Source: Fabrea salina (lineage: Eukaryota; Ciliophora; Heterotrichea; Heterotrichida; Fabreidae). From it: a stretch of DNA of 57,799 bases. The translations under genes were made by a program, and so were the position numbers. Within the stretch, counting starts at the first letter, position 1. Each line of letters begins with the position of its first letter. The stretch spans positions 1-57,799 of the forward strand of contig JALIHJ010000080.1 in NCBI GenBank assembly GCA_022984795.1, read 5' to 3'. Below are positions 15,115 through 53,034 of the stretch, piece by piece. The notes beneath the pieces were generated by a model. It ran no database searches. It was not told the DNA's origin and was given only the letters and a program-made list of their open reading frames with translations.

Positions 15115-15337
15115 TTATAACAGAGAAATAATTGTTAATACTTCTAAGCGATGAAAGTTAGGGTGTTGATTAATAAAGATTGTGAGAAGTCTACAGACTA
15201 AATTATAAAGCTAAAAGAAGGAGTTTGGAAAACTATGGACCACAGCGATGAAAGAATTACTTTCTGGACTGGCAAAAGACAGTCTCAATCATATAATTAC
15301 TGCAACTTTAGATTAAGTAATTCATATTTTTGCTATC

Positions 15338-16859: not shown

Positions 16860-16878
16860 ACCTGTAGAAAGAATTTTT

Positions 16879-19874: not shown

Positions 19875-19884
19875 TTATACCAAT
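19875..19884. promoter_or_regulatory. 10-nt gap between divergent start codons
   Basis: The whole space between the ATG of the Dpy-30 gene (minus) and the ATG of the carbonic anhydrase gene (plus) is TTATACCAAT. Both proteins have family-consistent N-termini, so neither start is easily moved. Promoter elements or transcription starts must lie inside this segment or in the partner's coding region. Confidence 0.6.
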
Positions 19885-20754
19885 ATGCTTTCCAGAGGCA
19901 TCAGAAGTTTGGCTTCGAAAGTCCCTGCTAGATTCAAAAGCAACCTGCTTAAAAGGGAAAGCTTCAAAACAGAAGAAGACTTTAAAAAAGTCCAGGAACT
20001 CCTGAACTACCCCTCTGACTTCCAAACTAAGGTCAAGCAGTTAATTCCAGACTCAGAATGGGACTACAAAAACCAAGGAAAAGACTGGGGCGACTTGTGC
20101 CCCATAGGCAACGAACAGTCCCCCACCAGCTTGCACTGCCAAGAAGCTTTTAAGAGCTCCCAAATATTCAACTACCAGTACTACCCGCTTAAGTTCAACT
20201 ACTCACCCACACTGGTAAAGGGAGAATTCACAAAAAGTGTTTACATAGTTCGTGGCGAGTTTGGAACCATGGAAGTCACTACTGAGGCACAGGCCAAAAG
20301 GAACTTTGAGGCAGTGCAGTTCCACTTCCACGCACCTGCAGAGCACGAATTAGACGGCAACCTGCACGACTTAGAACTGCACCTTGTCCACAGAGACCCC
20401 CAAGAAAAAGACATCAGTACAGTCGTAGGGTTTATGTTTAAGCTTTCCCAAGAAGAAAACCCCTTCATCGAGCAGTCTATCAACTGCCACACTGAAACCA
20501 AACCTGTCGACCTCAACCTTCTGTTTGGAACAAACCCTGAAGTACTTATGTATAAAGGAAGCTTAACTACTCCTCCCTGCACTGAAGGAATTTTGTGGTT
20601 CCTTTCAAGTAAAATCTTGCCGATAAACAAAGCCCAGTTGAAGTTCTTCACTGAAAAGTGGGCAGAGAACCCAGCCTTTGCAGGCGGAAAAGGAAACAAC
20701 AGAGAAGTTCTGCCACTCAACAACCGCCCAGTAATACACTTCGATAAGTTTTAA
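19885..20754 (+). CDS. Alpha-type carbonic anhydrase
   Basis: 289 residues. Zinc ligands are visible in the FHFHAPAEHELDG block (HxH) and in LELHLVHRD. The conserved LTTPPCTEG substrate-pocket loop and the N-terminal GNEQSPTSL match alpha-carbonic anhydrases (CO2 + water to bicarbonate + proton). The first 30 residues (MLSRGIRSLASKVPARFKS) are basic, Ser/Arg-rich and free of acids, which suggests a mitochondrial presequence rather than a secretory signal. The stop codon overlaps the stop of the convergent TVP38-like gene in TTAA (20751-20754). Confidence 0.95.
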   Translation: MLSRGIRSLASKVPARFKSNLLKRESFKTEEDFKKVQELLNYPSDFQTKVKQLIPDSEWDYKNQGKDWGDLCPIGNEQSPTSLHCQEAFKSSQIFNYQYYPLKFNYSPTLVKGEFTKSVYIVRGEFGTMEVTTEAQAKRNFEAVQFHFHAPAEHELDGNLHDLELHLVHRDPQEKDISTVVGFMFKLSQEENPFIEQSINCHTETKPVDLNLLFGTNPEVLMYKGSLTTPPCTEGILWFLSSKILPINKAQLKFFTEKWAENPAFAGGKGNNREVLPLNNRPVIHFDKF

Positions 20755-21542
20755 GAATTTTCCCTTAAACCTGTTTCTAGCATTTCGTCGATTTTCTTCT
20801 TAGCTTCATAAGAAATGTACCCAAACACCAAAACTATCAGAAAAAACCCTCCTAAAAAGAAGAACTGGTTTTGCTTGCCGTGCTTCCAGTTGCCTTCAAA
20901 AGCGTCCGAAAGGGAAGAAATAGTGCTTCCAAAGTACACTTCAGCAACTACTCCAGGCACCATCCCAACCGAAGCCAAAGCGTAGTCTCTGAAACTTATA
21001 GAAGTCACTCCCATAAAGTAGTTAAAAATGCTGAAAGGCATGAAAGGAGGCAGTCGCCACAGCATCACTAGTTTAAAACCTTTGTGCTTAATCACTTCTT
21101 CAAGCATCAAAAACTTCTCGTAAGTTTTGGCTTTCTGCACAATGTAGTTCCTAAACACGTACCTTCCTAAAGGCATGCTAACTAAACTTCCCACAAGTGA
21201 ACCCAAAAACACCAGCAAAGAACCTATACCTACTCCTTTCAAAGGCCCCCAAATCTCTGAATAAATGAACCCAGCTCCTAGCGACAAAAACACTATGGGC
21301 ATAAAAAGAATGGCTGCTGCTGTGTAGATAAGCACGAAAGTCCCCATTCCTCTGAGCCCAGAGTCCCTTACCCACTCCAGAAATGCTTTGAGCCAAACTT
21401 TTAAATCTGAAGTCTTCAACAAAATCAAAAGAACACTAAGTCCAATAAAACTCAAAAACCCTATAACTTTCCACTTGGAGTACCTCCTACTTCTTCTAGA
21501 ACTAGAAGCTTGGTCAGACTCTGTTTGGTGGTTCAGTTGCAT
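20751..21542 (-). CDS. TVP38/TMEM64 family (VTT domain) membrane protein
   Basis: 263 residues from ATG 21542 to TAA. A basic cytoplasmic N-terminus (RRSRRYSKWK) precedes about six hydrophobic segments. The SNARE-associated/VTT (DedA-like) core is clear: AGFIYSEIWGPLKG, a GS..GS..S.PLGRYVFR block, and LPPFMPFSIFNYFMGVTSIS. Family members act in Golgi or ER membranes as lipid scramblase-like proteins; that role here is by family. It ends inside the stop codon of the carbonic anhydrase gene. Confidence 0.88.
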   Translation of the reverse strand: MQLNHQTESDQASSSRRSRRYSKWKVIGFLSFIGLSVLLILLKTSDLKVWLKAFLEWVRDSGLRGMGTFVLIYTAAAILFMPIVFLSLGAGFIYSEIWGPLKGVGIGSLLVFLGSLVGSLVSMPLGRYVFRNYIVQKAKTYEKFLMLEEVIKHKGFKLVMLWRLPPFMPFSIFNYFMGVTSISFRDYALASVGMVPGVVAEVYFGSTISSLSDAFEGNWKHGKQNQFFFLGGFFLIVLVFGYISYEAKKKIDEMLETGLRENS

Positions 21543-21576
21543 TTACTTAAATGGCAACACTTAAGTTCTTTATTAA

Positions 21577-22268
21577 CTATAAAAGATCGCAATTAAACAC
21601 AGACTGGGAAGGGTGGAAGGATTTGGGCAGGTTTTTGTACTCAGAGGGTTCTCTGTAAAAGGCACTGCTAGAAATCAACTTCGAAATGTAGTCAACTTGG
21701 TAAGCAGAGGGCTGGGCTTTGTAACAAACTACTTTTCCCAACTGGCCCAAAATGCCTATGGTAGGTTGGTCTCCGTGTTCAGCCAACTCGTAAATCTCTG
21801 AAGAAACCAAAGCTCCTTCAGGAGGGTCTTCTTGGACGTTACTGATCATCACAAGTACTCTTCCTTGGGTCTTTTTATAAGCACTTGCTAAGAAGTCGTT
21901 GTAAAACCCGTTTCTGTCAGTCAGAAACAGTCTTCCCTCTGCTTTGTGGTGGAGCACACAAAGGTCACAGTCTTTTCCGAACACGAACCCCCTCAACTGA
22001 CTTTTGTACAAAACTTGAATCTGAGTTTTAAGTTCAAATTCAAGAGGCAACTGGCTGAAAAAGTCTAGGAGTTTAGAGAGTTCGTTTTGCTTGAGTGAGT
22101 GGATAGCAACAGTAGCTTGGTCGAGGTCTTTGAGCAGAAGTGTATCCTTTTTCAGGTGCCACTGTAAGTTCCTGAGTAAAAACATTACCACTCGGGTTCC
22201 AAGTTGACGAAGGCAATTGGCGCACTGGACTTTTTCTTGGTGAAGGTTTGTGTTGGAGCTAGGTGCAT
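21577..22268 (-). CDS. Unknown conserved-looking protein with one 17-nt intron
   Basis: Two exons: 22189-22268 and 21577-22171, joined across an intron at 22172-22188. Splicing gives a 224-residue protein starting MHLAPTQTFTKKKSSAPIAF and running through EPEWNLQWHLKK into the longer exon; stop TAG. There is no signal peptide or TM segment. The protein is hydrophobic/charged mixed and globular-looking, with several aromatic and Cys residues (GKDCDLCVLHH). I do not recognise the family. Without splicing the frame would begin only at an internal ATG at 22185, inside the intron, so the two-exon model is preferred. Confidence 0.7.
22172..22188 (-). other. 17-nt spliceosomal intron
   Basis: GTAATGTTTTTACTCAG on the minus strand. 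Removal turns an in-frame TAA into continuous coding (GAG TG|G AAC). It starts GTAA and ends CAG like the three 15-nt introns in this window but is two bases longer. Confidence 0.7.
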
Positions 22269-22389
22269 CTTACACTACTGAAAATACGTAGAGGGGTTCC
22301 CAGTGGAGTAGATAGTTTTCGGAGCTTATCATTACTTTGCACGCTTTGCACAAAAAAGGCCTGCTTGGCTGCATTTTTTACATTAGTCA

Positions 22390-24291
22390 TTACTTTACAG
22401 ACTTTTTCCTCAAGTCAAACTTGACAGTGGGTAGGTTTTTGGACTTGGCTGAAGCTGTTCTTTTAGGACGCACTGCAGGAGGTCCAATCATCATGGCAGC
22501 TACAGGGTTGCCGTATCCTAAACTACCTGCACTGTTAATGCTTTCTTGGCTTATAACTGAGGTTTTGGGTCTGTCAGAGTCCATAGGGGCTTGCTTAATG
22601 CGTTCTTCAGCCTTAGAAAGGAAGTCAAGAGGGTTTTCGAAGTTGAGTTGCTGGAGTCCTAAAGACTGTTTGGGGTGGGGTTTAGGAGGCAGTTGTGGAG
22701 AAGGAGCATGTCCTTTTAGTTGGTATATTTCAGAAGCTTGTTGGGGTTTTTTGTAGGGTTTGGTTTTTTTGAAGCAAGAGTTGCCAGAGTTCCTGGTTTT
22801 AAACTGGTAGCCTCTAGAGGTGTTGCACGAAGTGTTAACTAAACTTTCGTAGCTTTGACAAGTGGGCTGGTTGAGTTCGTATTCCCCAAAGTTCTGAAGA
22901 GGCTTGAAACTCTTTGGTTTGAATTTGTTAGAAGCAAAAGGACTGTCTTGGTAAATTTTAGTGACTGAGTTAGGCCGGGTTCTGGGTTTACTGTTGGGGC
23001 GTGTGCGGACTGGAGTGGGTGTTTTGGAGGTGTCTTTGGAAGAAGGCATCGACTTGTCTTGAGCAGGAGAGAAGGGCAAGTTGTGTTCTCGGTCAGTGAC
23101 AGGTCGGACATCCATGTAACGCTCATTGGTTTGTTCTAAACTTGTTTTTTTAAAAGGCAAGTCGTTAATTGGGCTTTTAACTGGCTTCTGGGAGAAAGCA
23201 AGAGTTTCCAACTTGAAGCACTGGGCCTGGTCCAAACTAGAGTCAAACTGGGAAACTTTGGGAAGCAAGACCTTTATGGTTTCTGAGTAGTTTTTTCGAG
23301 TGCACAAAGGGTTTCCTTTAAGACTGACTGATTTAAGTCTGGAAATTACTGACAGAGTTGCAATGTCCTCGAAGTTTTCGATCTGGTTGTAAGTCAAGTC
23401 CAAAGTGCTGAGTTTGAGCAAAGCACACAAGTTCTGTGCAGAAGAAATGCAGTTGCTGCCCAAAAAAAGCTCTTTAAGGTTCCTGACGTGGAGTATACTG
23501 AACTTTTTGATCTGGTTTTGGGTTAAGTTTAAAAATTCAAGGTTAGGACACTTGCTTTTCAGAGAGAACTCTGATATGCAGTTGTCTGAGGCATTCAACA
23601 GAACTAGTGTTTCTGGAATGAAGAACTCAATGCACTTCAAGTTGTTTCCAGCAATGTTTAAGTAAAGCAGTCCTTCGAAGCAATTGAACTGCGGAGCATT
23701 GCATTGGAAACTAAGGTCCAAAGAGTTAGCTGGATTTGGTTGGTCTCTGTGTAAGGTACCTAAAGTGATGCTGGTTCTGTTGAAGTGTTCCTCTGGCTTT
23801 TCAGAACTTTTTTCGTTAGAAAAACTACTTTTGGCAGTGGTTTGGTCAAGTATAGTGCTGAGTTGTTCAATGCTGTATGAAGTAACTTCAAGCATGGGGT
23901 CTTTTTTGGCTTTAGTTTTCAAGGGAAGTTCGCAACTCGCTTGGACTTGGGAGTTCTGTGACTTCTTTTTCGAGACACTTAATTGGATCAAAGCGTCAAT
24001 AACTTTGTCCCAGACTAAGTAGGTTTCGGGTATCTCTGAAATCTGGCTTAAAACTTCCTTTAAAGAAAAAACCATAACTGGGCTTTTAGCAAGGTGCTTC
24101 GAAGGCTCCTGAAGTTCTAATTTATGCGCCCTTTCCTTAATCCCTTGTATCAAGACTGACTTCTGTATTTGGTCAGGAAAGGTTTTTGAAGAGCTGTGCT
24201 CACATGAGCCAAGTTTATTGAACATCCTTCTGAGGTCTCTAAACCACTCCATCCTCCCCATTACAGCATTAGTGTCTACTGTGGTTTTCAT
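22390..24291 (-). CDS. Leucine-rich-repeat protein with disordered tail
   Basis: 633 residues from ATG 24291 to TAA. Residues 1-200 are charged and helical. From about 205 to 350 lie SDS22-like LRRs: LLYLNIAGNNL, LVLLNASDNCI, LEFLNLTQNQI, LKELFLGSNCI, LSTLDLTYNQI and a cap with LKSVSLKGNPLC, ending like an LRR-cap motif. The C-terminal half is Ser/Pro/Lys-rich and likely disordered. LRR proteins of this kind occur in ciliary and centrosomal complexes in protists, but a specific role cannot be assigned. It shares a 43-nt gap with the divergent gene at 24335. Confidence 0.8.
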   Translation of the reverse strand: MKTTVDTNAVMGRMEWFRDLRRMFNKLGSCEHSSSKTFPDQIQKSVLIQGIKERAHKLELQEPSKHLAKSPVMVFSLKEVLSQISEIPETYLVWDKVIDALIQLSVSKKKSQNSQVQASCELPLKTKAKKDPMLEVTSYSIEQLSTILDQTTAKSSFSNEKSSEKPEEHFNRTSITLGTLHRDQPNPANSLDLSFQCNAPQFNCFEGLLYLNIAGNNLKCIEFFIPETLVLLNASDNCISEFSLKSKCPNLEFLNLTQNQIKKFSILHVRNLKELFLGSNCISSAQNLCALLKLSTLDLTYNQIENFEDIATLSVISRLKSVSLKGNPLCTRKNYSETIKVLLPKVSQFDSSLDQAQCFKLETLAFSQKPVKSPINDLPFKKTSLEQTNERYMDVRPVTDREHNLPFSPAQDKSMPSSKDTSKTPTPVRTRPNSKPRTRPNSVTKIYQDSPFASNKFKPKSFKPLQNFGEYELNQPTCQSYESLVNTSCNTSRGYQFKTRNSGNSCFKKTKPYKKPQQASEIYQLKGHAPSPQLPPKPHPKQSLGLQQLNFENPLDFLSKAEERIKQAPMDSDRPKTSVISQESINSAGSLGYGNPVAAMMIGPPAVRPKRTASAKSKNLPTVKFDLRKKSVK

Positions 24292-24334
24292 TATTTGTTA
24301 GGAATTTAAACGACTTAATTAAGCATATACAACT

Positions 24335-24925
24335 ATGGAAAGCTTAAACTATAGAAAGCCCCCGGTTAAGTTGCCTATGAGTATTTCGCCCAGTAAAAAC
24401 TCCTTCTCCACAAAGTACTTTAAAACGTTTGAAACCCAACCAATAGTGTCCACCAACTCAGAGTGCACTCAGAACCTTGAAACTCACAAGTCTCTGGACA
24501 TCAACCTTCTGCCTGTGAACTTTTACTTTCCCAAGTCAAAATCCAAAAAGAACAACAAAGCAACAGAAATCGAACCTCAAAAAGCAATAACCACCAAAAA
24601 GTCCAAAGTCTCCAAGTATAATATAAGGATTCCCAATGCTTCCAGAGAAAACCAACTGTTCAAGCCAACAGAAACCAAAGGTAAACTCTCAGAAAAGGCC
24701 CATAAAAAAAGGTTCGAACTAACTCTTAAACCTGAAAAACCAATTTACAACACTTATTCCAGCCACAACACTTCATCCCAGCATCAAATCCGCATGAAAG
24801 GCAAAAGACAAGAAGAAAAAGTAACAGAATCCACTAAACAAGTATTTAGAATCACACGCAAGTCACGTGCAGAAAGACTCTGGACCTGGAAAGGCGCTTA
24901 TGGAGTAATCAATAACCCTTTGTAA
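24335..24925 (+). CDS. Basic, probably disordered protein, unknown
   Basis: 196 residues, ATG 24335 to TAA. Rich in Lys, Ser, Thr and Asn with no TM segment or recognisable domain; the C-terminus (AERLWTWKGAYGVINNPL) is the only compact aromatic part. Composition resembles ciliate cytoskeleton-associated proteins. Coding is supported by the clean open frame tightly fitted between neighbours (43 nt upstream, 11 nt downstream) and by codon use like the rest of the core. Confidence 0.7.
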   Translation: MESLNYRKPPVKLPMSISPSKNSFSTKYFKTFETQPIVSTNSECTQNLETHKSLDINLLPVNFYFPKSKSKKNNKATEIEPQKAITTKKSKVSKYNIRIPNASRENQLFKPTETKGKLSEKAHKKRFELTLKPEKPIYNTYSSHNTSSQHQIRMKGKRQEEKVTESTKQVFRITRKSRAERLWTWKGAYGVINNPL

Positions 24926-24936
24926 GAAGTAATAAT

Positions 24937-26349: not shown

Positions 26350-26383
26350 CTTAAATTGGTTTAGACAATTTGTTGAACTAATA

Positions 26384-27436: not shown

Positions 27437-27441
27437 TTGCT

Positions 27442-28407
27442 CTATAGTTTAATTAAAAAGAAACTGAAATAGTAGTAAATCACTGGAGCCGATAGAACAA
27501 TCGAGTCAATTCTGTCCAGTATTCCTCCGTGGCCTGGAATTAAGTTTCCTGAGTCTTTAACTAAAGCAACCCTTTTGAAAAAGCTTTCTCCTAAGTCCCC
27601 TATAGTGGCAGTAGTTGACACCAACAATGTAAGTGCAACTATGTCCACTGCTCGGAGTTTTGGGAACAACCAGATCCCTGCAAAGGGGCATATTGCTACC
27701 AACGACAAAAAGTTCAGCAAGTAACCCCCTATGAACCCTTCGAACTTTTTGTTGGGTGAAATGAACGCAGCAAAAGGAGTCTTGCCAAAAGCCTTTCCAA
27801 AAGCCAAGCCTCCGTTGTCTGTTTGGTAACAACTGAAAAGCCACAGGAATATAAGCCTGGGAGCTTCTTGTGTGTTGAAGATAAGCGCTGCATAGCTAAA
27901 AGGGAAATTCAGACAAACCAAAAACAATAAGTCTCCTAAAAGCAGGTTGAAAACCAATGAAGAAAGTCTTTGTGTTTGGTAAATAACTCTTTGAATAATC
28001 CTAAGTAACCCTTACTCTTCACTGGTAGAAGTTATTTTTGACCTAGGAATGCTTTTTGCGTACTTAGAGAACTGAAACACTCTGTAAGAAAACACCAAAA
28101 CCATAGCCAGAACAAGCCCCATGCAAAGAGACCCAGGCCCCTTTTCTACTTCTAAAAAAGCAAACGAAGAAGGCAACAGCATCACCAAGTAAGGAACAAT
28201 GCTAGAACTGAGTCCCACCAAGTAGTTCTCCTCTTCGTTTCCCAGTTGTTTGCGACAGATTTCCATGTAAATTACTTTGAACTCTTTGTACGCCAGCATA
28301 AGCACAACTGTGTAAGCCATAAAAGACAACCTGTAGTCCATAGTGCACAAGTACAGCCCACAACAAGCCAGAATTCCGCTTGCAAACCTAGTTTTATAGC
28401 TCCCCAT
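27442..28407 (-). CDS. Phosphatidate cytidylyltransferase (CDP-diacylglycerol synthase)
   Basis: Two exons, 28016-28407 and 27442-28000, with a 15-nt intron at 28001-28015; spliced length 316 residues, stop TAG. Multiple TM helices run from residue 5 on. The family signature is complete near the C-terminus: SFFKRVALVKDSGNLIPGHG followed by GILDRID. The enzyme makes CDP-DAG from phosphatidate and CTP at the ER, feeding phosphatidylinositol and cardiolipin synthesis. The start codon is 8 nt from that of the divergent ankyrin-HDAC gene. Confidence 0.95.
28001..28015 (-). other. 15-nt spliceosomal intron
   Basis: GTAAGGGTTACTTAG on the minus strand. Removing it joins GAAGA to GATTATTC and gives an uninterrupted CDP-DAG synthase. 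The 15-nt size and GTAAG...TAG pattern are typical of heterotrich introns. Confidence 0.93.
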
Positions 28408-28415
28408 CTATCAAT
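28408..28415. promoter_or_regulatory. 8-nt gap between divergent start codons
   Basis: CTATCAAT is all that separates the ATGs of the CDP-DAG synthase (minus) and ankyrin-HDAC (plus) genes. Like the 10-nt gap at 19875 it ends in CAAT before the plus-strand ATG. The shared promoter must overlap coding sequence. Confidence 0.6.
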
Positions 28416-30686
28416 ATGTCTAGCAACGGCATAGAACACCAAGACATCCACGATATTTGCAAAGAGGGCGACGAAGAGTCCCTGAAACAACTTTTGTCAA
28501 ACCAAGAAGAAGCACTGTCCTTAGTCACCCAACACAACATAGAAGGAATGCTTCCCCTACACATTGCAGTTCTCAATGCCAAAGCAGGGTGCACTGCTGT
28601 TCTGCTTGAAAAAGGAGCTACCCAGGACCTCCCTTTTGAAGGACTTCTGCCTATCCACTTAGTTTTTTCACTTGCTCCTTTTGAAGCTTTCCGTCAAGAA
28701 GCAACAGCCACACTGCAGGTACTCCTCACTCACCAAGCCAACATAAACGCTAGGGACAGACTCGGACGCACTGCACTCCACCTTGCTGCTGCCTGCAACG
28801 CCAAAGAAGCTATTTCACTACTAATTGCTGCTAACATTGATGCAAACCTTCCAGATTTCACAGGACGCTACGCAATCCACCACGCAATTGAACACAGAAA
28901 CGCTGAGTGTTTGCGCCTTATGATCAGCGAACTAGGAAGCGACATGCTTTTGTTGTCAGATTCAAACGGAGACCAACCCATACATTTAGCTGTGAGGAGA
29001 GGTGCTTGGGAGTGCTTTGGAGTGCTTTTGGAGCTAGGAACAGAGGCTCTTCTTAACTTAAACAACGAAAGAGAACAAACTCCAGAAGAACTAGCTGAAA
29101 TTTGTGGGTTCAGAGAAGAATACGACAAAGCCAAGCAAGGCATTGAAGTGCCAACCCACGCGAAGGGACAAACAATAGTAGTGACTCATGAACTCTGCAA
29201 AGAACACGCTTCACTTCCTCCTTCTTTGAGGGAACTCCAAAAATACGTCTTTGCCCAAAGAAAGTACCAAGCCGAAAACCCCTACAGAATCTACGTACTT
29301 CAAGAACAACACATTGCTTCTCTGCTCATAGACGAGTTTGCAGACAACTTGCTATGGGTCAAAGAACCTCCCCTAGCCAACATTGCAGATGTTCTGCGTG
29401 TGCACGAGTACTCTTACTACTCAACTCTCAAAAACAGAATCAAAAACGCCAAAGAAGAAGGACCTGAACACATTGACCGAGACACTATGATCAGCAAGGA
29501 GTCACTAGACTCTGCACTTGCAGCTGCTGGAAGTGTAATTTGTGCCATAGACGAAGTAGTTACTGGCCGCTGCAAAAACGCTTTTTGTTCAGTGAGGCCG
29601 CCAGGGCACCACGTAGGTCCTTACGGAGCAGTGTCTTCAGAAGAGGATCCTGGCATCACTTCTAACGGGTTTTGCTTGCTGAACAACGTTGCAATTGGAG
29701 CTGGGTACGCTAGGTACAACTACAAAGGAACTATAAACAGAATTGCTATAATAGACTTTGACGTGCACCATGGCAACGGAACAGAAATGATTGTTAGGAA
29801 CTTGGAGCCTTCAACTGTTTCAGCAGACCTGAACTCAATCTTTGTGAAGGGCAAAATCACTGCTGAGAGTTACAAACCTTGGCTTTCTGAAGACGACCAC
29901 GAAAACGTGCTTTTTGTGTCTAGTCACGCTTACGGAGAAGACATAGGGGGAAAGTTTTACCCAGCTTCAGGGCTTTACGAAAGTCCTCCAGAAATGTACC
30001 CTGCAGGAATTCTTAACATCCCACTAGAGTACGGAACTGACTCTGCCAAGTTCAGAAACGGTAACTTCTAAGCAGCTTACAGAGAAAAGGTCTTCAAAAG
30101 ACTCATAGACTTCCAGCCTGACTTAATAATGATATCTGCAGGCTTTGACGGGCATGGGTTAGACAACATCAACCACGGATTTATGGACATTGACGAAGAC
30201 GACTTTTACTGGGTGACTGAAAACCTAATAAAAGTAGCAAACACTACTTGCGAAGGCAGGGTAGTTTCGGTGCTGGAAGGAGGTTATAGGATTAAAGGAG
30301 GCATCATTTCAGCTTTAGCCCAGTCAGTTGCTTTTCATGTTTTTGCACTTATGAACGCGACTTCGGAACACTTCACTCCGCACGACTCTTCCCACATAAG
30401 CAGAGACCTCAGCAAAATGGAACTCAAAAGAAGTCTTTCACACAAGAAACACCAAATGAACCTGAGGAAGAAAAGGAAAATCAACCCAGAGTTGCTAGAA
30501 ATGATGATGGAAAGTGAGGAAAGCGACGAAGAACCCCTTCAAGAAGCCCCAGAAGAACCCTTTCAAGAGGTCCAGGAAGAGACTCCTCAAGAAGCCCCAG
30601 AAGAACCCTTTCAAGATGTCGAAGAAGAGACTCCTCAAGAATCCAACCAACAGGATAAAGGTAATTTGGGTCTAGGTGAACAATAA
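28416..30686 (+). CDS. Ankyrin-repeat class II histone deacetylase
   Basis: Two exons, 28416-30060 and 30076-30686; 751 residues after splicing, stop TAA. Residues about 35-235 are ankyrin repeats (MLPLHIAVLNAKAG, GRTALHLAAACNAKEAISLL, GDQPIHLAVRRGAWECFGVL). From about 265 to 650 is an HDAC6/HDAC10-type deacetylase with all catalytic landmarks: VRPPGHHVG (paired His), DFDVHHGNGTE (zinc Asp/His), ISAGFDGH (zinc Asp) and LEGGYR (catalytic Tyr). An acidic tail with a 16-residue duplicated unit follows. It probably removes acetyl groups from histones or tubulin, with the ankyrins for targeting; substrate is unknown. Confidence 0.93.
30061..30075 (+). other. 15-nt spliceosomal intron
   Basis: GTAACTTCTAAGCAG. 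Removal joins AAACG to CTTACAGAG and restores the conserved deacetylase sequence FRNAYREKVFKRLIDFQPDL. Unspliced reading stops inside it, so a retained intron would cut off the Asp and Tyr of the active site. Confidence 0.95.
30540..30640 (+). repeat. 48-bp tandem duplication in the HDAC tail
   Basis: The unit beginning CAAGAAGCCCCAGAAGAACC at 30540 repeats at 30588 and starts a third time at 30636. It encodes an acidic Glu/Pro/Gln-rich segment. The proline-glutamate style echoes the PQEP minisatellite in the gene at 31629. Confidence 0.8.
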
Positions 30687-30761
30687 TCAAGAACTAGTTA
30701 TAAGTTAAGAATATGGGTTAAACTGTTTAGAAAGTATGTATGAGTATAATAACATAATCAA

Positions 30762-31547: not shown

Positions 31548-31628
31548 TCTTTATGTAGTAATCAAGAAGGCGGCAAAATGTTCGATTAAGTTTAGGTAAA
31601 AAATGGAACTTAATTAAGTTTAGGATAA

Positions 31629-32423
31629 TTAAATATTAGCTTTAGATTTCAAGAAGTGCTGTTGCATTTTTTTAAAAGCTTTGTAAGTGTTACTGGGGTT
31701 GAACTGTGCTTTGTATTCGCTTTTGTTAAACTGTGTTTCTACTGGAAAGTACTTTTCAATGGGGTTCTTTTTTGGTTCTTGAGGTGATTCTTGAGGTGAT
31801 TCTTGAGGTGGTTCTTGAAGTGGTTCTTGAGGTGGTTCTTGAGGTGGTTCTTGAGGTGGTTCTTGAGGTGGTTCTTGAGGTGGTTCTTGAAGTGGTTCCT
31901 GGACTTCACTTTTATTGTCCAAAATATCGTCAATAATAGCCTCTAGACTTTCATCTTTTACAGAAACATTCTTTGAAATATGACTCAAATTCCGGGGCTT
32001 GAGTGTTTTTTTAAGTTCTAGAGCATTGCGACTCAGAGGTATCTTTTTGCACCTGTTTTCGGACCTAAAATGAGTTTCCGGTTTTGCATTTTGAAAAAGC
32101 CAGTTCGATCGTTCAGCTAGGTTACTTGGTGAGTCCCATGAAAGAACTGCAAGTTGGTCCCTAGAAAGTGCGGGTTTCATTTTCTGGCGGGAAGACCTAG
32201 GTTTGGGAGTTGAAGGTTTGGGAGCTTGTGGAGCTTCAAGTATGCAAAGAGGCCTTGTGCTCATTTGGTCTTTGGGCTTGTAGAGAACCAAAGGGTTGGG
32301 GTCGAAACTCGGGGACTTGTATCTGCGCTGTTTTTTAAACGTTTTGACGGCTTCGAAGCGAGGTTTGATGCTGTGAGTAGAAATTGAAGAGTAGTCTCTG
32401 TAGTTAACGATGAGGGGTTTCAT
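31629..32423 (-). CDS. Basic disordered protein with PQEP repeat, unknown
   Basis: 264 residues from ATG 32423 to TAA. Mostly Lys/Ser/Pro-rich and likely disordered. Residues about 175-220 are a QEPP repeat encoded by a 12-bp minisatellite. No domain, TM segment or signal peptide was recognised. Coding is supported by a clean frame, the ATG immediately following a short intergenic spacer, and core-like codon use. Confidence 0.7.
   Translation of the reverse strand: MKPLIVNYRDYSSISTHSIKPRFEAVKTFKKQRRYKSPSFDPNPLVLYKPKDQMSTRPLCILEAPQAPKPSTPKPRSSRQKMKPALSRDQLAVLSWDSPSNLAERSNWLFQNAKPETHFRSENRCKKIPLSRNALELKKTLKPRNLSHISKNVSVKDESLEAIIDDILDNKSEVQEPLQEPPQEPPQEPPQEPPQEPPQEPLQEPPQESPQESPQEPKKNPIEKYFPVETQFNKSEYKAQFNPSNTYKAFKKMQQHFLKSKANI
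31774..31899 (-). repeat. 12-bp minisatellite encoding QEPP
   Basis: About ten and a half copies of GGTTCTTGAGGT (plus strand) with single-base variants (GGTGATTCTTGA, TTCTTGAAGTGG). All are in phase with the minus-strand reading frame, so copy-number change would keep the frame open. Confidence 0.9.
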
Positions 32424-32442
32424 CTTAATTATAAACAGGTTA

Positions 32443-32865
32443 TTACTGGATGCTGGGGTTTTTATGCTTAGGATCCTCGGACTTTTCTTTCAGAAGTAAA
32501 GAAATGCTTAAGCACATCTCTTCTGACTCGTCCAAAAGTTTCCTTAAGCTTGTTTCTTCGTAACTAAGCACTCTGTAAGGTTTCCTTTTAAAATTCTGGA
32601 TTTGACTTACAGTGAACTTAACTCTTAAAGGCTTCAACTGTCTTTTGTACTGGGCATAAGCTTCCACAAACTTACTTTCATTCAGTTTGAAGTTGGTCCT
32701 TGAACAGTTTTTCAAGACTTGCTGGATTTGCTTGGCCAGACAAGGGTCTAATGTACTTACGGCTCCTTGGATGTCACTTAAGTCCACCTCTCCAAAAAAG
32801 TCCTTCTTTAGCACTGCAAAGATACTCTGGGCTTTTTGCCTCAACCTGGCAGAAAGACTTGCCAT
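32443..32865 (-). CDS. Small helical protein, possibly EF-hand-like
   Basis: 140 residues starting at ATG 32865 (MASLSARLRQKAQSIFAVL). The frame is open further upstream over the divergent gene, but this ATG abuts it and the upstream part has no ATG-started, protein-like sequence. The protein is helical, and the pattern FAVLKKDFFGEVDLSDIQGA then FKLNESKFVEAYAQY resembles a degenerate EF-hand pair, without clear calcium ligands. The role is unknown. Confidence 0.65.
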   Translation of the reverse strand: MASLSARLRQKAQSIFAVLKKDFFGEVDLSDIQGAVSTLDPCLAKQIQQVLKNCSRTNFKLNESKFVEAYAQYKRQLKPLRVKFTVSQIQNFKRKPYRVLSYEETSLRKLLDESEEMCLSISLLLKEKSEDPKHKNPSIQ

Positions 32866-32870
32866 AAAAA
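32866..32870. promoter_or_regulatory. 5-nt gap between divergent start codons
   Basis: Only AAAAA separates the two start codons (CAT AAAAA ATG). It is the shortest gap in the window. If both starts are right, each gene's 5' control region is the other's coding sequence. Confidence 0.55.
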
Positions 32871-33341
32871 ATGGATTCCACTTCTTGGAGTAGAGGCGAA
32901 GAGTCCTTTCAAGCTTCCAGCGAGATCCCTCCTCTTCCCACCCGCGAACAGGAACTTCAGTACCTAGATGAACTCGAACGAGAACTGCGCGAAAGACCTT
33001 TCCTTGAACGCAATTTAGTTCCGGACCCCAGTCGTCACTCAAAAGCCAGACTTAAATCAGAAACCATTAAGTACAAGACTGATTACTGGCACAAGTTTGC
33101 GCTGGGAGGAATTCTGTTATCGCCCCTGGCAATGGGTTTAACCAAGCTTTCTCCAGCAAAAACTAGCCCCATAGGGATTCCTTACAGAGCTTATGGTTCC
33201 CAGTATAAAATCCGTTTTTGGAGCTTTTTTATACTTTACGATGCCTTTCTAGCTTACACCTTTGCGTCTATCTTTAGAGACAACCGCAAACTCAAGTCTC
33301 ACCTTTACCCGTTATACCAAACAAGAGAACGCAAACTTTAA
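32871..33341 (+). CDS. Small protein with two transmembrane segments, unknown
   Basis: 156 residues, ATG 32871 to TAA. The N-terminal half is charged (REQELQYLDELERELRERPF). Two hydrophobic segments follow, FALGGILLSPLAMGL (about residues 77-91) and FWSFFILYDAFLAYTFASI (about 121-140), separated by a short loop, with a basic C-terminus. This hairpin topology fits an organelle inner-membrane or ER protein. The family is not recognised. Confidence 0.7.
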   Translation: MDSTSWSRGEESFQASSEIPPLPTREQELQYLDELERELRERPFLERNLVPDPSRHSKARLKSETIKYKTDYWHKFALGGILLSPLAMGLTKLSPAKTSPIGIPYRAYGSQYKIRFWSFFILYDAFLAYTFASIFRDNRKLKSHLYPLYQTRERKL

Positions 33342-33367
33342 TCGGGTAACTAAGCTTATATTTAAAA

Positions 33368-36300
33368 ATGGACTTGGCAGAACGCCGCTTTCAGAGTAAG
33401 TTCTAGCTAGGTTTAAAAAAGCGATTGGACGCCTTGCACTACTGCCACCCACTTAGTTTCCAAAGTGCCAATTTAGTAGATGCTATTCTCAGCGATATGC
33501 TCAAAGCCACTGAAAAAGCAGAGAAACTTACCAAAGAAAACTCCAGTTTAAAAACCCTAGAAAAACAAGCCAAAGCCAACTTAGAGCCTTTTCGAAGAGA
33601 AGTAGAAAGACTAGGACGTGAAAACAACGAACTCCACCTAGAACTCATGCGACTCAAAGAAGATCACCGAAGTAAAGAAGAAAAATGGCGCGTGGCACTA
33701 AACAAACTTGAAGCTGAAAACACAGACCTTAAGTTTTTAGTTGACCAAAGCAAAGCCACTGCAAAACAACTTGAACAAGAAAAACAAAAACTCAAGTTAA
33801 AACTAGACGAAGTGCTTTCAAATGCTTACTTGCCCAGTGCTGAAAGAGGAATCAGAACTAGTGACCTTCCTGTCCACCAAAGAAACATTGTTGGGAGGAA
33901 GCAATACTTTGAGTCCTACAGTTTGTTGGGGGGTTGCCAAGTCAAAGACGAAACTGGCAGGTCCTCCGAAGACTGGATTGAAGAACTAAGGAACTCAGAC
34001 GAAAGACTTAAGAAGTGCCAAGAAGACCTTGAAGAAGCCTGCAAAGCTCACAGAGTACTTAAAGAAGAACTGGAAAGAACCCAGTACCTACTCTCTAACA
34101 GAGACTCTGAGATCGAAAGACTCAGTGAAGCTGTGAACAAAGGAGAACACCTAGAAACCCTGCCTGGGAGGTTTTTGCAGTCTGAGTCCAAAAAGTCCTT
34201 TAAAGTGCTAAACGAAAGGCTGGACTTTTTGAACTCTGAAAACAAAAAGCTCGAAGAACAACTCCAAGAAACCAAAACTAAGCTCAAGGGAGTCAGTGAC
34301 GTGTACGAGCAAAGGGACTCCCAACTAGTCACCATTGCTAACTTGAAAGACAAAAACAAAGTACTTAAGCAGACACTACAGCAACTCCAAGAAACTAGTC
34401 CTGAAGACCACGGGGAACTCAGAAACTCCAAACTGAAACAAGAAGAACTAGAAAACCAACTAGACACTCTGAAACAAGAACTTGAGTACTATAAACAAGA
34501 ATGCGGTAGAGTGTATAATCTGCAAGCTGCTTATAATTCAGATAAAAAAGTGTACAATGACGCTTTGGAAAAGCTAAGTCAAGAAAAGGCTGACACGTAC
34601 CTTAAACTCAAAGAAGCACTGCAAGAAAAAGACAGGTTCCGTTCAGAAGCCAAAACTCTAAAGGAACACCTAGACTACTCAGAAGTGCAACTGCACAACT
34701 TAAAACGAGAATTAGAAATGCAGCAAAAGAACCTTAGCCGAGTTGCCCAGGAGTCCTCCTCCACTACTCAAGAGTTCTACGACCTAAGAAGCCAAAAAAG
34801 CTCACTAGAGTCCCAGAACTCTTTGCTCGAGAACGAACTTAAGAACCTTAAATACGAACTAGAAAGAATGCAGAAGCTGAAACAGGCCTCCGAACAAGAA
34901 CTAGAAACTCTCAGAAACCAAGGAATGAAAACTAAGGACCAACTAGAGTCCACTAGTTCTGCCCAACAAAGACTCCAACTCCAACTAGACTCCCTTATCA
35001 AGGAAAACGAAGCCCTCAGAGCAGACATTCAGAACCTGCACTTTCTGCGCGAAAAAGACAAAGTTGGCTCTTTGGACGCTGAAAATCGAGTAAGGGACCT
35101 TCAGTCTCACATAAACTCTGCCCAAGAAAACCTACGCAGTGCTCAAAGGGAAAACCAAGAACTTTCCAACCAACTAAGCGAAAAGGTAGAAGAAATTAGA
35201 AGACTTGAAACCAATCGCTTGGGTCTTGAAAAAGACCTAGCTGACATGAGACCAGTTAAAAGGAAGTACGAAGAGGTTTCTTACGAACTCAACAAACTCA
35301 AAGAGAACGTAAGCACTAGCGAGTTCGAGTCTTACAGAGTCAGGAAGGAACTAGATGAAACTAAGGAGCAACTTAACTTCAAAGACTCAGAAGTCAGGGA
35401 ACTCAAGTCTTACCTAGAACAAGTTAGGAAGGAACGTGAGGAGATCCGCAGGGACTATCAAGAACTGCAAAACCAAACAGAAAGTTACTCAGCAAGCATC
35501 AGGAAAGCCCAGTACCTCGAAGAAGAACTAGGGCTTCTGAAGCAACAAGCCCAAGACTCCCGGTCACACGAAAGAAAACTCTACCAAGAAATAGAAACTC
35601 TGAGGGCTAGCCTTTCACGCTCTGAAGACAAACTCTACACTGCTGAAAAACAAGCTGAAAGAACCAAGTCTTCACAGTCACAGTTGGAGTCTGAAGTCCA
35701 CAAACTCCAAAAAGCCCTTAGTGAGTCCCAAAACTCTGGAGAAAGGAAAAACTCAGAAATATACCAACTGGAACAAAAAATCAAACAACTCCACTTAGAA
35801 GTTGGAGAAACCAAGCAGTCCCTTGCTAATGAAGAGTCAGAAAAGTACTCTGTCCAAAAAGAAGCTAAAGAAAACTACGATAAGTACCTAGCTGAGCAAT
35901 CCTATGTGCAGAAACTCACAGATCAAAACAGCCACTTAAAGAACTTAATGAACTCACTAGAACAAGCCAAAGAAGATTTGAACAACAAAGTCGAAAGCCT
36001 CCAACTGCAACTCCAGGAAAAAGAAAACTACACTTTCAACTACCAAGAAGAAATTGAGTTCCTTAAAAAGCAACTAAGTGCTAAAGACCACGAAAAAGAC
36101 AAGTACTACGAAGAAAGGGAAAACTTGTACTACCAAGTCGACAACTTAAGGAACCAACTAAACAAAAAGCAAGACGAAGTAGAAAGTTTCAAGTCTTCTA
36201 TGAAGAACCAACAACAGTCCTACGAAGAACTCAAAAACACAATTAAGCTTTTGAGGGAGTCAGAAAACTACTACAAGTACAAACTCGAAGAAAAAGACAA

Positions 36301-37267
36301 AGAGTGCCAGCACTTACAGGACAAACTTAAAACTGCCCAGGACCAATTCCAAGAAGCCCAAAGCAGTTCTTCAAAGTACCAAAGCCAAATCAGAGACCTC
36401 AACTCCCACATAAAGTCCTTAAACCAAGAACAAACTAAACTCGAAGACAAAATAAGACACCTATACTCCCAAAGAGACCAACTCTACGAACAACAAGAAA
36501 AGCACACTAAAATTGAAGAAAACTTACAAAACAAACTGGACCAAACACAGCAAGAGAAGCAAAGACTGCAGAAAGACTACTCAGCTCTGCAAAAAGACTA
36601 CGACAAAATCAACAGAGCCTACGAACACATAAGAGAAGAGAACTCCAAGTTGTCTTCCCAAGTAGATGAACTCAAAAATTCATTTGGCAGAACCCAAGAA
36701 GAAATTAACCACTACAAAACCCAAGAAGAAGACTACACCCACGAAGTCAGACTCCTTGAAAAAGAACTCTCAAACTACAAGTGGAAACTCGAAACTGCAG
36801 AACAAAGGTACATTGAAGCAGAAAACTCGAAAGCAAAACTAAAAGAAGAACTTTCGTCCAAGTATGAAGTTTCAAGCAACCTCCAAAGTGCCTGTGCAGA
36901 ACTCCAACGCAAACTAGACACAGTCCAGAACGAAAAAGCTCTAGTTGAGTCACGTCTGCGTTCAGCTGAAAAAAAACTGCACTCTGTCAAAGCAGAACTA
37001 GACTACGAAAAACAGAAGTACGTTGACTTAGAAGCAGTGCTTTTGCGGGAGAGAGAAAGAGTCAGGGGACTCCAGGAAGAACTGCGCAGTGCAGACAACG
37101 AAAAGGTGTTTTCAGGGTCCTACAGCGACTTGCAGACGAAAGTTGAAGACTTCAAAACAGAAAACATTAAACTCGAAATGGAACAAATGCGACTTAAAGA
37201 CGAACTAACTAAGACGAAACGCCAACTTCACGAAGTCGAAAACAAGCTTAAGGAGTCGACCTCTTAA
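33368..37267 (+). CDS. Giant coiled-coil protein with a 15-nt intron near the start
   Basis: Exon 1 33368-33395 encodes MDLAERRFQ; after the intron (33396-33410) exon 2 runs to TAA 37267. The spliced protein has 1294 residues. From about residue 30 to the end it is an almost unbroken coiled coil rich in Glu, Gln, Lys and Leu, with conserved-looking non-coil insertions only near residues 145-190 (NIVGRKQYFESYSLLGG). Proteins of this form build basal-body rootlets, centrosomal or cortical fibres in ciliates. The exact family is not recognised. The stop is 2 nt from the stop of the convergent RPS11 gene. Confidence 0.85.
33396..33410 (+). other. 15-nt spliceosomal intron
   Basis: GTAAGTTCTAGCTAG, after the first 28 coding bases. 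Removing it links the only suitable ATG (33368) in frame to the long coiled-coil exon, giving CAGA|GTTTAAAA. Without it the long frame would have no ATG near its beginning. Confidence 0.88.
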
Positions 37268-37269
37268 TC

Positions 37270-37749
37270 TTAGAATAAAACGAATTGTTTACGGGCACTG
37301 CCGAAAATCTGGTTTGACTGGACCTTGAGGACATTGAAGCGGACAGTCTTGGAAAGAGGACGGCATTGGCCCAAAGTCACAATGTCTCCTTCCTTGATAT
37401 TGTCGAAACAGGGCGAGCAGTGAGCTGCAATGTTTGTGTGGCGCTTTTCGTATCTGTTGTACTTTTTGATGTAGTGCAAGTAGTTGCGCCTAACTATTAT
37501 AGTGCGCTTCATTTTAGTCGAAACAACCATGCCCTTGAGAATGCGTCCGCGGATAGAGACATTTCCTGTGAATGGGCACTTTTTGTCGACGTAGTCCATA
37601 TCAATGGCTTCTTTTGGAGTTTTGAAACCCAGTCCTACGTTTTTCCAGTAACGAACGCCCTTTTCAGTTTTGGTAGCCAAAAACTTGCGGCTTTTGAGGG
37701 AAACTCCTTCTTGCTTTTGGAAAGCCTTCTCTGTTTGTATGTCGGCCAT
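37270..37749 (-). CDS. RPS11: 40S ribosomal protein S11 (uS17)
   Basis: 159 residues when started at ATG 37749, giving [13 protein letters not shown], which matches the canonical eukaryotic start; an in-frame ATG 21 nt upstream (37770) would add MEGHNQT. Family blocks are clear: [52 protein letters not shown] and [15 protein letters not shown]. It binds 18S rRNA in the small subunit. The stop TAA lies 2 nt from that of the convergent coiled-coil gene. Confidence 0.97.
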
Positions 37750-37797
37750 TGTTTGATTATGGCCTTCCATATTCGTGATTAAACATCTAGTCGATAA

Positions 37798-39021
37798 CTA
37801 AGGGTAATTTTGCTTATATAATTTCATTACTTCAGAAAACAGCCGAGGTGCAAGTCTAGAGTCTCTAATTTCCAACTCAGCTACAGCAAGAATTAACTTT
37901 TCAAGCGATTCTATGCTTTCCGTAGAAGCTTCGCAGTTGGCAACTGCAGTCTCCAGTATCGTCAAGAACGAAGGCTCCCGGCAAGGAAGCCAGGAAATAG
38001 AGTCCTCCTCCGGCACCCCAACTGTAGTTCTTACACTGTTGCTTGAACTTGCGTTGCTTGAGTTCTTCCGATGCGAACACTTGAACTTTGTTGATCCTGA
38101 ACTATGGGAGTGTCGATGAGTTGTTTCGGACAGTTTGAGCACAGTGTCTACGGGTTCTTGTGTTGAGTAAGACCGGAAGTGCTCTCTTTTAAGTATTGTT
38201 GAGGAGTCTAAAAGGTCAGTTAAGTAATATGTCTTTTTAGCAGACTTAATGAACTTGTGCCCTAACAAAGCCTCTGCGTCAGGTCTCATCGAAGGGTCTT
38301 TTTGCAGACACAAGGAAACGAACTCCCGAAAAGCAACTGAAAACGAAGCATCTAGTTGTGGAGGAGGGCCTGTTTGGATCCTGAACAAAGCGTTGATAGG
38401 TTGCAAATCGTTGTGGGGAGGACAGGCATAAGCTAACTCGTACGCAGTGATGCCTATTGACCAAATGTCGGCTTTGGTGTCATACAAAGACTGGGAGATG
38501 ACTTCTGGGGCCATCCAGTAAGGAGTTCCCACAAAAGAGTTCCTTTTGCTAACAGACTCAGTGATTTTGGCAGCAACGCCAAAGTCAGCAAGTTTCACTT
38601 CTCCTTCCATGGAGAGCAAAATGTTAGCTGCTTTGATGTCTCTGTGGATTTTGTGGTTGGCGTGCAAGAAACTAGTAGCCTTCAGAAGTTCTCGCAGAAG
38701 TATTGGAATGTAAATCTCCTGGATGGGGCCTCGACTCCTTATAATGTCCTTGATGGAGCCCCCTGCCACGTACTCCATAACAATGTAGAGTCTGGAGTTG
38801 TGCTTGAAGGACTCATGGAAGTTTGTGATCAAGGGGTTGCAGCATTCCTTTAGTACTTGGATTTCTTGGTTTACCTCATCCAGCAACTCCTCTCCTTCGC
38901 TCAAGTCAACTATTTTTATTGCTACTATTTCGCCAGTTTCTTTAGCAAATGCTTTATAAACTTCTCCAAAAGAACCTTTACCAATTTTTTCAAGTAGTTC
39001 GTATTGGGTTACTCTTTCCAT
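37798..39021 (-). CDS. Ste20/GCK-family serine-threonine kinase (MST/STK24-like)
   Basis: 407 residues from ATG 39021 to TAG. Complete kinase domain at residues about 7-260: GKGSFGEVYKA glycine loop, VAIKIVD with the active Lys, IHRDIKAANILL catalytic loop, ADFGV (DFG), and the Ste20-type GTPYWMAPEVI activation segment. The C-terminal tail is Ser-rich then helical, as in GCK-III kinases, which act with MOB/CCM3-type scaffolds in polarity and Golgi control. That role here is by family only. Confidence 0.94.
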   Translation of the reverse strand: MERVTQYELLEKIGKGSFGEVYKAFAKETGEIVAIKIVDLSEGEELLDEVNQEIQVLKECCNPLITNFHESFKHNSRLYIVMEYVAGGSIKDIIRSRGPIQEIYIPILLRELLKATSFLHANHKIHRDIKAANILLSMEGEVKLADFGVAAKITESVSKRNSFVGTPYWMAPEVISQSLYDTKADIWSIGITAYELAYACPPHNDLQPINALFRIQTGPPPQLDASFSVAFREFVSLCLQKDPSMRPDAEALLGHKFIKSAKKTYYLTDLLDSSTILKREHFRSYSTQEPVDTVLKLSETTHRHSHSSGSTKFKCSHRKNSSNASSSNSVRTTVGVPEEDSISWLPCREPSFLTILETAVANCEASTESIESLEKLILAVAELEIRDSRLAPRLFSEVMKLYKQNYP

Positions 39022-39063
39022 TTATTGTTAGAATATTAAACTTAAATAAGTCGCTACTCAGAA

Positions 39064-39558
39064 TTATTTAGATCACTTGAAGACTTCTTGATACTCAACC
39101 TCTGACAAATTGTTAGTTGTATCTACTCTAATCCTCCCCCCCGAAGTCACTTCTATTTTCCCAAACTTATCCACGTTTAGGCGCATGAATTTGTTGTCCT
39201 TCATCTTGATGAACCCGTTCCTCACCACTGCTGCGCAGCCAACTCTTGCTCTCTTAGCAATCTCTGGATCTATGGTTCCCAGAACTATGCTTCCTGTCTC
39301 GTCTCCTATTAGGATCTCCCAAATGTTTATTTGTTTTCCGTCCGCAAAAGTCCGCGAATGCACGTTCCTAGCTTCTTCCACCACTTCACAAGAAACATTA
39401 ATCCCAGTCATTTCAGGACAGAGGTCCTTCACTTTGTAAAAAAGAGGCTTTGACACTTGCACGTAGGTCCTGTGGGGAGCTCTTCCTGGGCCAAGTCTGC
39501 CCCTTCTGGGCCCGCGTCCTCTAAACCCCCTCCCGCGAGATCTTCCTCTGCGCTCCAT
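39064..39558 (-). CDS. SOSS-B/hSSB1-like OB-fold protein with RGG N-terminus
   Basis: ATG at 39558. An Arg/Gly-rich N-terminus (GRSRGRGFRGRGPRRGR) precedes an OB fold (about residues 35-140: VKDLCPEMTGINVSCEVVE, IWEILIGDETGSIVLG and IKMKDNKFMRLNVDKFGKIE), close to the ssDNA/RNA-binding SOSS complex subunit B family. The frame meets TGA at 39073-39075 and then TAA at 39064-39066. If UGA codes for Trp the protein ends VFKWSK (164 residues); with a standard code it ends VFK (161). No other gene here ends in TGA, so I give the longer form. Confidence 0.85.
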
Positions 39559-39565
39559 TTGTATA
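39559..39565. promoter_or_regulatory. 7-nt gap between divergent start codons
   Basis: TTGTATA lies between the ATGs of the OB-fold gene (minus) and the small membrane protein gene (plus). It contains a TATA-like string but has no room for a normal promoter plus leader in either direction. Confidence 0.55.

Positions 39566-52309: not shown

Positions 52310-52364
<55 letters not shown>

Positions 52365-52960: not shown

Positions 52961-53034
<74 letters not shown>

Follow-up and report, generated by a model that had tools for sequence, protein, structure and literature searches.

We report here that a spacing of 4-10 nt between divergent start codons, occupied by one shared A/T box, is found in about a quarter of the divergent gene pairs sampled from the heterotrich ciliate Fabrea salina. 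The window analysed is the whole 57,799-nt stretch of macronuclear contig JALIHJ010000080.1 (GC 41.1%; assembly size 18.33 Mb). A first-pass annotation had listed ATG-to-ATG gaps of 10, 8, 5 and 7 nt at four places in the window, and these were borne out from the sequence. The four pairs are as follows:

19875..19884: pair 1 spacer TTATACCAAT between divergent ATGs, 10 nt, G/C at 2 of 10 positions (layout CAT-TTATACCAAT-ATG)
19584..19874, minus strand: Dpy-30 motif protein, 96 aa (PF05186, E 1.1e-10; box score 3.5)
19885..20754, plus strand: carbonic anhydrase, 289 aa (PF00194, E 1.8e-26; box score -1.49, poor)
28408..28415: pair 2 spacer CTATCAAT between divergent ATGs, 8 nt (layout CAT-CTATCAAT-ATG)
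27442..28407, minus strand: CDP-DAG synthase-like cytidylyltransferase (PF01148, E 1.2e-38, residues 25-312 of the spliced protein)
28416..30686, plus strand: ankyrin-repeat histone deacetylase, HDAC (PF00850, E 5.3e-41, plus ankyrin models; box score 0.85)
32866..32870: pair 3 spacer AAAAA between divergent ATGs, 5 nt (layout CAT-AAAAA-ATG)
32443..32865, minus strand: open reading frame for a protein of 140 aa, with no Pfam family above its cut-off
32871..33341, plus strand: conserved protein, 156 aa (no Pfam match at E 0.01; box score 5.73)
39559..39565: pair 4 spacer TTGTATA between divergent ATGs, 7 nt (layout CAT-TTGTATA-ATG)
39073..39558, minus strand: Ssb-like OB-fold protein with an RG-rich N-terminus (PF21473, E 3e-11; box score 4.24; start uncertain)
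39566..39955, plus strand: open reading frame for a small hydrophobic protein, 129 aa (no Pfam match at E 0.01; box score 2.74)

The N-terminus of the carbonic anhydrase looks like a putative mitochondrial presequence. The CDP-DAG synthase-like and HDAC genes each have a predicted 15-nt intron (28001-28015 and 30061-30075, respectively); in the 32443..32865 gene one model excises a 15-nt intron at 32596 and another keeps it. Among 30 predicted 15-nt introns, 26 begin with GTAA, 28 have A at position 10 and 29 end in YAG, where the intron finder accepted GT..AG only and gave preference to GTA and YAG, with none for GTAA or for A at position 10. The AAAAA spacer of pair 3 recurs in one further pair (L001).

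Divergent gaps were collected over 254.6 kb (the window and 23 other stretches), which contained 47 divergent pairs. The gene finder used is blind to divergent overlaps except CATG and to convergent overlaps except the 4-nt form; earlier versions, which over-called short genes and 16-nt introns, were replaced. With pair 4 corrected by hand, 13 of the 47 gaps measured 4-10 nt, none measured 0-3 nt or 11-14 nt, and four measured 15-17 nt, which is about the length of two boxes. ATG-to-ATG distances show an excess at 4-10 nt in this sample: with an even spread over 0-59 nt as the null, 13 of 32 gaps fell into this range (p = 3e-5, including the window, which was chosen for this feature), and 9 of 27 did so when the window was left aside (p = 0.0026). 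The arrangement recurs beyond the window, in 9 of 38 divergent pairs.

Assembly-wide pattern counts were also considered as proof and were dropped, as their controls were non-neutral and the pattern is only weakly specific. CAT-W5-ATG occurs at 312 places, the reversed pattern at 118 and ATG-W5-CAT at 122, and the corresponding counts for CAT-Wn-ATG and its control were 276 vs 249 (n=3), 422 vs 91 (n=4), 209 vs 50 (n=6) and 155 vs 27 (n=7); yet the reverse of the control ATG-W5-CAT itself occurs at 225 places. Normalised per ATG, CAT-W5-ATG scored 624 and permuted triplets 391, 541 and 450, an excess of 1.35-fold. At 20 such places (the first 22 listed minus two already in the sample), the gene finder put a start on both sides in 7 cases, on one side in 10 and on neither in 3; the counts are inflated because single starts have CAT before them by chance. 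As a rough estimate, true pairs with an all-A/T gap of 5 nt number about 80-110. Extrapolation from the 9 close pairs in the 196.8 kb beyond the window yields, again roughly, about 840 pairs at 4-10 nt, a figure that the pattern counts suggest is too high.

The close spacing coincides with a feature of starts in general. The spacers of the 13 close pairs contain 6 G/C in 83 nt (composition was taken from these local pairs because 7 pairs of the larger close sets, i.e., the 19 pairs without pair 4 used for box scoring and the 20 pairs used for word and antisense-ATG profiles, had been chosen by pattern). Upstream of 180 starts, G+C was 8-21% at positions -1 to -7, 26% at -8 and 28-33% at -9 to -12. 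An unbroken A/T run of at least 4 nt lies ahead of the ATG in 67% of the tandem starts (n=92) and 60% of the distant-divergent ones (n=68). Roughly one start in three has no such run, so the box is not a universal feature. By box score (which was trained on these same starts), 73% of 160 starts exceeded the 95th percentile of 1154 internal ATGs. Starts thus generally have an A/T-rich box, located at about -1 to -8, and close divergent genes have one in common. TATAA in 162 starts had a frequency of 22.4 per mille at -12 to -5, 6.2 at -20 to -13 and 0.8-3.1 at -60 to -21 (8-nt bins); it peaked only beside the ATG, and no TATA-like motif of the Halteria type was found about 30-45 nt before it. 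An AT-rich element adjoining the start codon, as in a Giardia-type initiator, was present (180 starts; 13 close-pair spacers). A floating TAATA initiator was rejected: TAATAA was enriched at several offsets, mostly from tandem genes with an upstream TAA stop in or beside the box.

The best explanation, to which we give an even chance, is that a short A/T box suffices at starts and that close divergent pairs have one box in common. An A/T-rich box immediately ahead of the ATG, about 4-8 nt long, would then usually be nearly all that a gene start requires, and in many divergent pairs two boxes would have merged into a single one that makes up the entire intergenic region. RNA polymerase II would start in the box or within about 10 nt of it on both strands, ribosomes would tolerate such short leaders, and a separate promoter motif in the neighbour's coding DNA would be unnecessary.

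Leader length bears directly on this explanation. Leaders are probably very short, judging from sequence, because there are no upstream ATGs at -8 to -4 and few out to about -14: the counts ahead of 162 non-close starts were 0 at -8 to -4 (6.8 expected), 7 at -14 to -9 (11.8 expected) and 9 at -20 to -15 (10.3 expected), with values near expectation further out. A normal upstream-ATG frequency could, alternatively, reflect leaky scanning. Divergent starts (n=84) had a single upstream ATG at -14 to -9, where 6.8 were expected (tandem starts, 6 against 6.0), which favours slightly longer leaders, and close pairs had 0 against 3.6 at -20 to -9. The leaders of divergent genes may therefore extend into the first codons of the partner. 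Both deficits are consistent with a different reading, which we rate as quite possible, if short of an even chance, namely that transcription begins within the coding sequence of the partner, about 10-40 nt upstream, that the mRNA 5' ends overlap in antisense, and that the A/T box is a translation context. Instead of acting as an initiator, the box may indeed provide a translation context; the A-rich sequence ahead of the ATG suits a translation signal. Such leaders would also resemble those of other ciliates, as given in the available portions of three sources: 5' UTRs measured at 8-44 nt in Nyctotherus (PMC2633312), of about 18 nt (elsewhere in the same source about 10) in Halteria (PMC7858049), and assumed by the authors to be short and tightly distributed, "like other ciliates", in Loxodes (PMC11441545). 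On the other hand, out-of-frame upstream ATGs in non-close genes were at normal frequency from -15 outwards (7 against 6.8 expected at -20 to -15), and antisense ATGs in the first codons of close partners were no rarer than in other genes. Avoidance of antisense ATGs was accordingly rejected as a signal specific to close pairs; it is in tandem genes that CAT is scarcest among the first codons. Ten words were profiled by position ahead of 162 other starts, and nothing but the A/T box itself peaked there; words enriched at -70 to -9 relative to -220 to -90 were A/T-rich, as expected of intergenic DNA. Nor were the first codons of 40 close-pair starts AT-rich.

The first-pass annotation had proposed a genome-wide bidirectional mode of initiation with dual-use DNA. 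Recurrence outside the window and probably very short leaders agree with this, but dual-use DNA, in the sense of promoters demonstrably within a partner's coding sequence, is unsupported in the form proposed, since no promoter-like signal turned up there. The close pairs appear to be less a special mode than an aspect of general compaction: among 91 tandem gaps, 22 are at most 12 nt long, and 7 of 42 convergent pairs have a 4-nt overlap at their stop codons. Under the shared-box explanation, the same streamlining would have run tandem TAA stops into the next start box and made convergent stops overlap.

It is very improbable that one start per pair is misplaced, with the true start downstream and a larger real gap. 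We searched from -30 to +50 codons for other open in-frame ATGs and found none in 5 of the 8 genes (Dpy-30, carbonic anhydrase, 32865-, 32871+ and 39566+); the next one lies at codon 44 in the HDAC gene and codon 49 in the OB gene. For the CDP-DAG synthase, codons 22, 29, 36 and 47 offer alternative starts; its CTP_transf_1 match, however, aligns residue 25 of the spliced protein with profile position 21, so the domain would begin at about residue 4. The 32871+ protein is 45% identical over its full length to its homologue P0140, and both begin Met-Asp. Start-context scores exceeded the 95th percentile of internal ATGs (1.39) at 6 of the 8 starts, the exceptions being HDAC (0.85) and carbonic anhydrase (-1.49), whose poor box speaks for misplacement. 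The in-frame coding score of codons 2-8 was 0.150±0.037 at 26 close-pair starts and 0.210±0.017 at 162 others (off-frames negative), and over codons 2-15 the signal was roughly equal. Both sides of close pairs thus appear coding right from the ATG. Pair 4 is the weakest of the four, and the ambiguity of its OB start also counts towards misplacement, though upstream rather than downstream: its open reading frame stays open as far as 39756, where the first gene-finder run placed the start, leaving the 39566+ gene uncalled, and later runs gave 39729 and 39728 as the starts of the two genes. The gap of -2 nt from the gene finder at this pair is an artefact. In the gap list the starts were set by hand to 39558 and 39566, the former because its box score is 4.24 as against -2.6 at 39756. 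Equally improbable is spliced-leader trans-splicing, in which 5' ends are joined from elsewhere and no promoter is needed per gene: the tandem gaps of 0-12 nt are compatible with polycistronic units, but no acceptor AG consensus was found upstream of the ATG (G is depleted at -1 to -8 in 180 starts, and TAG, the only acceptor-like word counted, stands at 0.56-0.83 of expectation at -20 to -4), and divergent pairs would still require promoters.

The F. salina macronuclear genome is reportedly called extremely streamlined in the title of Zhang et al. 2022. PMC13166879 describes it as the smallest of the ciliate genomes known and the highest in GC. The protein encoded at 40002-41414 has its best taxon-named matches in the heterotrich Stentor coeruleus (44% and 43% identity), with ten matches ranking higher. 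The macronuclear genome of Blepharisma, also a heterotrich, is similarly gene-dense, with short intergenic and untranslated regions and introns of 15-16 bp, and the available part of that account says nothing of how far apart divergent start codons lie or of any shared start box (PMC9942806). In Halteria grandinella, another ciliate, UTRs are likewise extremely short and there is an A/T-rich motif for initiation, but this motif is placed 13-25 bp ahead of the start site, with leaders averaging about 18 bp, on gene-sized chromosomes (PMC7858049, in part), whereas the F. salina TATAA peak sits directly at the ATG. The closest likeness is to the AT-rich initiation sites of Giardia, which has a compact genome and short leaders; the consensus there is AT-rich, somewhat symmetrical and contains the start site, and some adjacent gene pairs start at one common nucleotide on both strands (PMC3792122, available portion). 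The same text doubts that symmetry implies bidirectionality and suggests that many cases are two nearby unidirectional starts (PMC3792122). Start sites were mapped in Giardia, whereas those proposed for F. salina are predictions from sequence, and in about a quarter of the F. salina divergent pairs sampled the box makes up all of the 4-10 nt between the two genes. The F. salina TATA-binding protein (TBP) has two repeats above the family cut-off, while that of Giardia is described as highly divergent in the abstract of PMC12209930.

Gene finders that presume promoters or bar overlaps can be expected to misplace gene ends in such genomes. A stronger version of the shared-box explanation, which we regard as doubtful, is that one A/T box of 4-8 bp, and no other sequence-specific element, serves several hundred gene pairs of this free-living ciliate as a complete bidirectional core promoter and both leaders. 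If so, these would be among the shortest eukaryotic intergenic promoters, and the nuclear mRNAs would be nearly leaderless. If start sites do lie in the shared box, F. salina would set a lower bound on the DNA needed for a eukaryotic promoter and leader in an organism with an ordinary-looking TBP, and would offer a simple system for studying how RNA polymerase II chooses direction and how ribosomes initiate on near-leaderless mRNAs.

Re-reading the sequence at the junctions bore out all four spacers reported between divergent start codons, namely TTATACCAAT (19875-19884), CTATCAAT (28408-28415), AAAAA (32866-32870) and TTGTATA (39559-39565). The window is an entire contig (57,799 nt, 41.1% GC) of an assembly of 18,328,466 nt in 103 contigs; the Fabrea salina genome is 18.35 Mb. 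We take the organism to be a heterotrich, most likely Fabrea salina, a species described as combining the smallest ciliate genome known with the highest GC of any ciliate (PMC13166879). Pfam searches supported Dpy-30, carbonic anhydrase, cytidylyltransferase (CDP-DAG synthase), ankyrin-HDAC and an Ssb-like OB fold among the eight genes, and found no family above cut-off for the proteins starting at 32865 (−), 32871 (+) and 39566 (+). Two predicted 15-nt introns, one in the HDAC gene and one in that for CDP-DAG synthase, restore the reading frame (judged by eye). For five of the eight genes, no alternative in-frame ATG is open between codons −30 and +50, the start at 32871 is common to a homologue of 45% identity, and start scores exceed the 95th percentile of internal ATGs in all genes except HDAC and carbonic anhydrase. 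The least certain start is that of the OB gene in the fourth pair: its reading frame is open as far as 39756, a 98%-identical database copy (protein entry P0001) is predicted with an upstream start, and our gene finder picked different starts at this pair. Position 39558 is favoured by the start-box score (i.e., start context relative to internal ATGs), and the pair was therefore kept in the counts with its reported starts.

To ask whether such spacing exceeds chance, we applied a purpose-written gene finder (a codon model with 15-nt introns) to the window and 23 further loci (5 from a PF00156 search, 18 chosen by place), together 254,569 nt. Among the 204 genes that it called, neighbouring pairs were divergent in 47 cases, convergent in 42 and tandem in 91. 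Of 30 predicted 15-nt introns, 26 carry GTAA, 28 have A at position 10 and 29 end in YAG. Divergent gaps, including the fourth pair corrected by hand, were 4, 5 (five times), 6, 6, 7, 7, 8, 10, 10, 15, 16, 17 and 17 nt, then at least 26 nt. Close head-to-head pairs thus recur beyond the window, as the first-pass annotation had proposed: gaps of 4-10 nt occurred in 13 of 47 divergent pairs, and in 9 of 38 without the window. Relative to an even spread over 0-59 nt, p was 3e-5 for the full set and 0.0026 once the window was left out, the latter being the fair figure because the window was picked for this feature. Genome-wide pattern counts pointed in the same direction, but single starts supply much of that excess.

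We take the predicted N-termini at both ends of close pairs to be real. In-frame coding scores at 26 close-pair starts were 0.150±0.037 (codons 2-8) and 0.175±0.024 (codons 9-15), compared with 0.210±0.017 and 0.171±0.021 at 162 other starts, and the remaining two frames of close-pair starts scored negative; the test is not fully independent because the gene finder itself selects for coding. Misplaced starts should depress the first-codon scores further than observed.

Upstream of 180 starts, G+C rose with distance from the ATG, from 8-21% at −1 to −7 through 26% at −8 to 28-33% at −9 to −12. Tandem starts and divergent starts separated by more than 10 nt both have this A/T-rich start box, although an unbroken run of four A/T is missing from about a third in each class. 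In the 13 sampled close pairs only 6 of 83 spacer nucleotides are G or C, and the spacer is the start box of both genes. The four gaps of 15-17 nt, small in number, would fit two back-to-back boxes. Searches of the literature, available in part and without the F. salina genome report, turned up no shared start box described for a heterotrich, and we therefore claim no priority. In the available text on Giardia, start sites have an AT-rich consensus and some neighbouring genes share one start nucleotide on both strands, the authors suspecting two unidirectional sites behind many apparently bidirectional ones (PMC3792122).

The probable positions of transcription starts were inferred from the sequence alone. 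At the 162 non-close starts, upstream ATGs were absent at −8 to −4 (0 observed, 6.8 expected), somewhat low at −14 to −9 (7 vs. 11.8) and about normal beyond (9 vs. 10.3, 22 vs. 23.0 and 39 vs. 36.2). Most leaders would be about 10-14 nt or less, provided that ribosomes initiate at the first AUG; short leaders are known in ciliates (PMC7858049, PMC2633312). At −14 to −9, divergent starts alone had 1 upstream ATG against 6.8 expected and tandem starts 6 against 6.0, while close pairs had 0 against 3.6 at −20 to −9. Given this scarcity, the leaders of divergent genes may extend by a few codons into the neighbouring gene. The idea that the partner's coding DNA doubles as promoter found no support as stated: first codons of close pairs are neither AT-rich nor specifically short of antisense ATGs. 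In the word profile a TATAA peak adjoins the ATG only, with none at 30-45 nt upstream; a TBP gene is present, both repeats above the family cut-off. Our preferred reading, given an even chance, has transcription starting no more than about 10 nt from the ATG. Starts some 10-40 nt inside the partner would agree with the leaders measured in other ciliates, and we rank them second, as a serious if somewhat less probable possibility.

Several other features of the window were observed. Acidic proline-rich repeats (QEPPQEPP- and EEPFQE-type) occur in the HDAC C-terminus and the nearby protein starting at 32423 (−) (~30515-30686, 31629-32423). For the protein at 40002-41414, the top taxon-named relatives were from Stentor coeruleus. 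Predicted genes are sparse at ~6900-10300 and 15100-17500, in contrast to the dense 19-51 kb. A eukaryotic LSU rRNA match at 51979-53074 (−) covers the 3' third only (model positions 2193-3399 of 3401); past 53074 none of the remainder was detected, and a 554-aa ORF occupies the opposite strand there. The match is possibly a fragment or rearranged rDNA.

Compaction extends to other gene orientations. Tandem gaps of 0-12 nt occurred in 22 of 91 pairs (loci L003, L014, L018, L021, L022 and L025 among others), the upstream stop being TAA in all 22; in the tightest, the stop merges into the next gene's start box (e.g., TAAAATG, TAAATAATG). Convergent stop codons overlapped by exactly 4 nt, the sole overlap permitted by the gene finder, in 7 of 42 pairs, three of them in the window:

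20751-20754, both strands, convergent 4-nt stop overlap, TTAA
41411-41414, both strands, convergent 4-nt stop overlap, CTAA
44167-44170, both strands, convergent 4-nt stop overlap, TTAA

Any 3' UTRs of such genes would enter the opposite gene. Given these short tandem gaps and stop overlaps, the head-to-head pairs are one aspect of genome streamlining.
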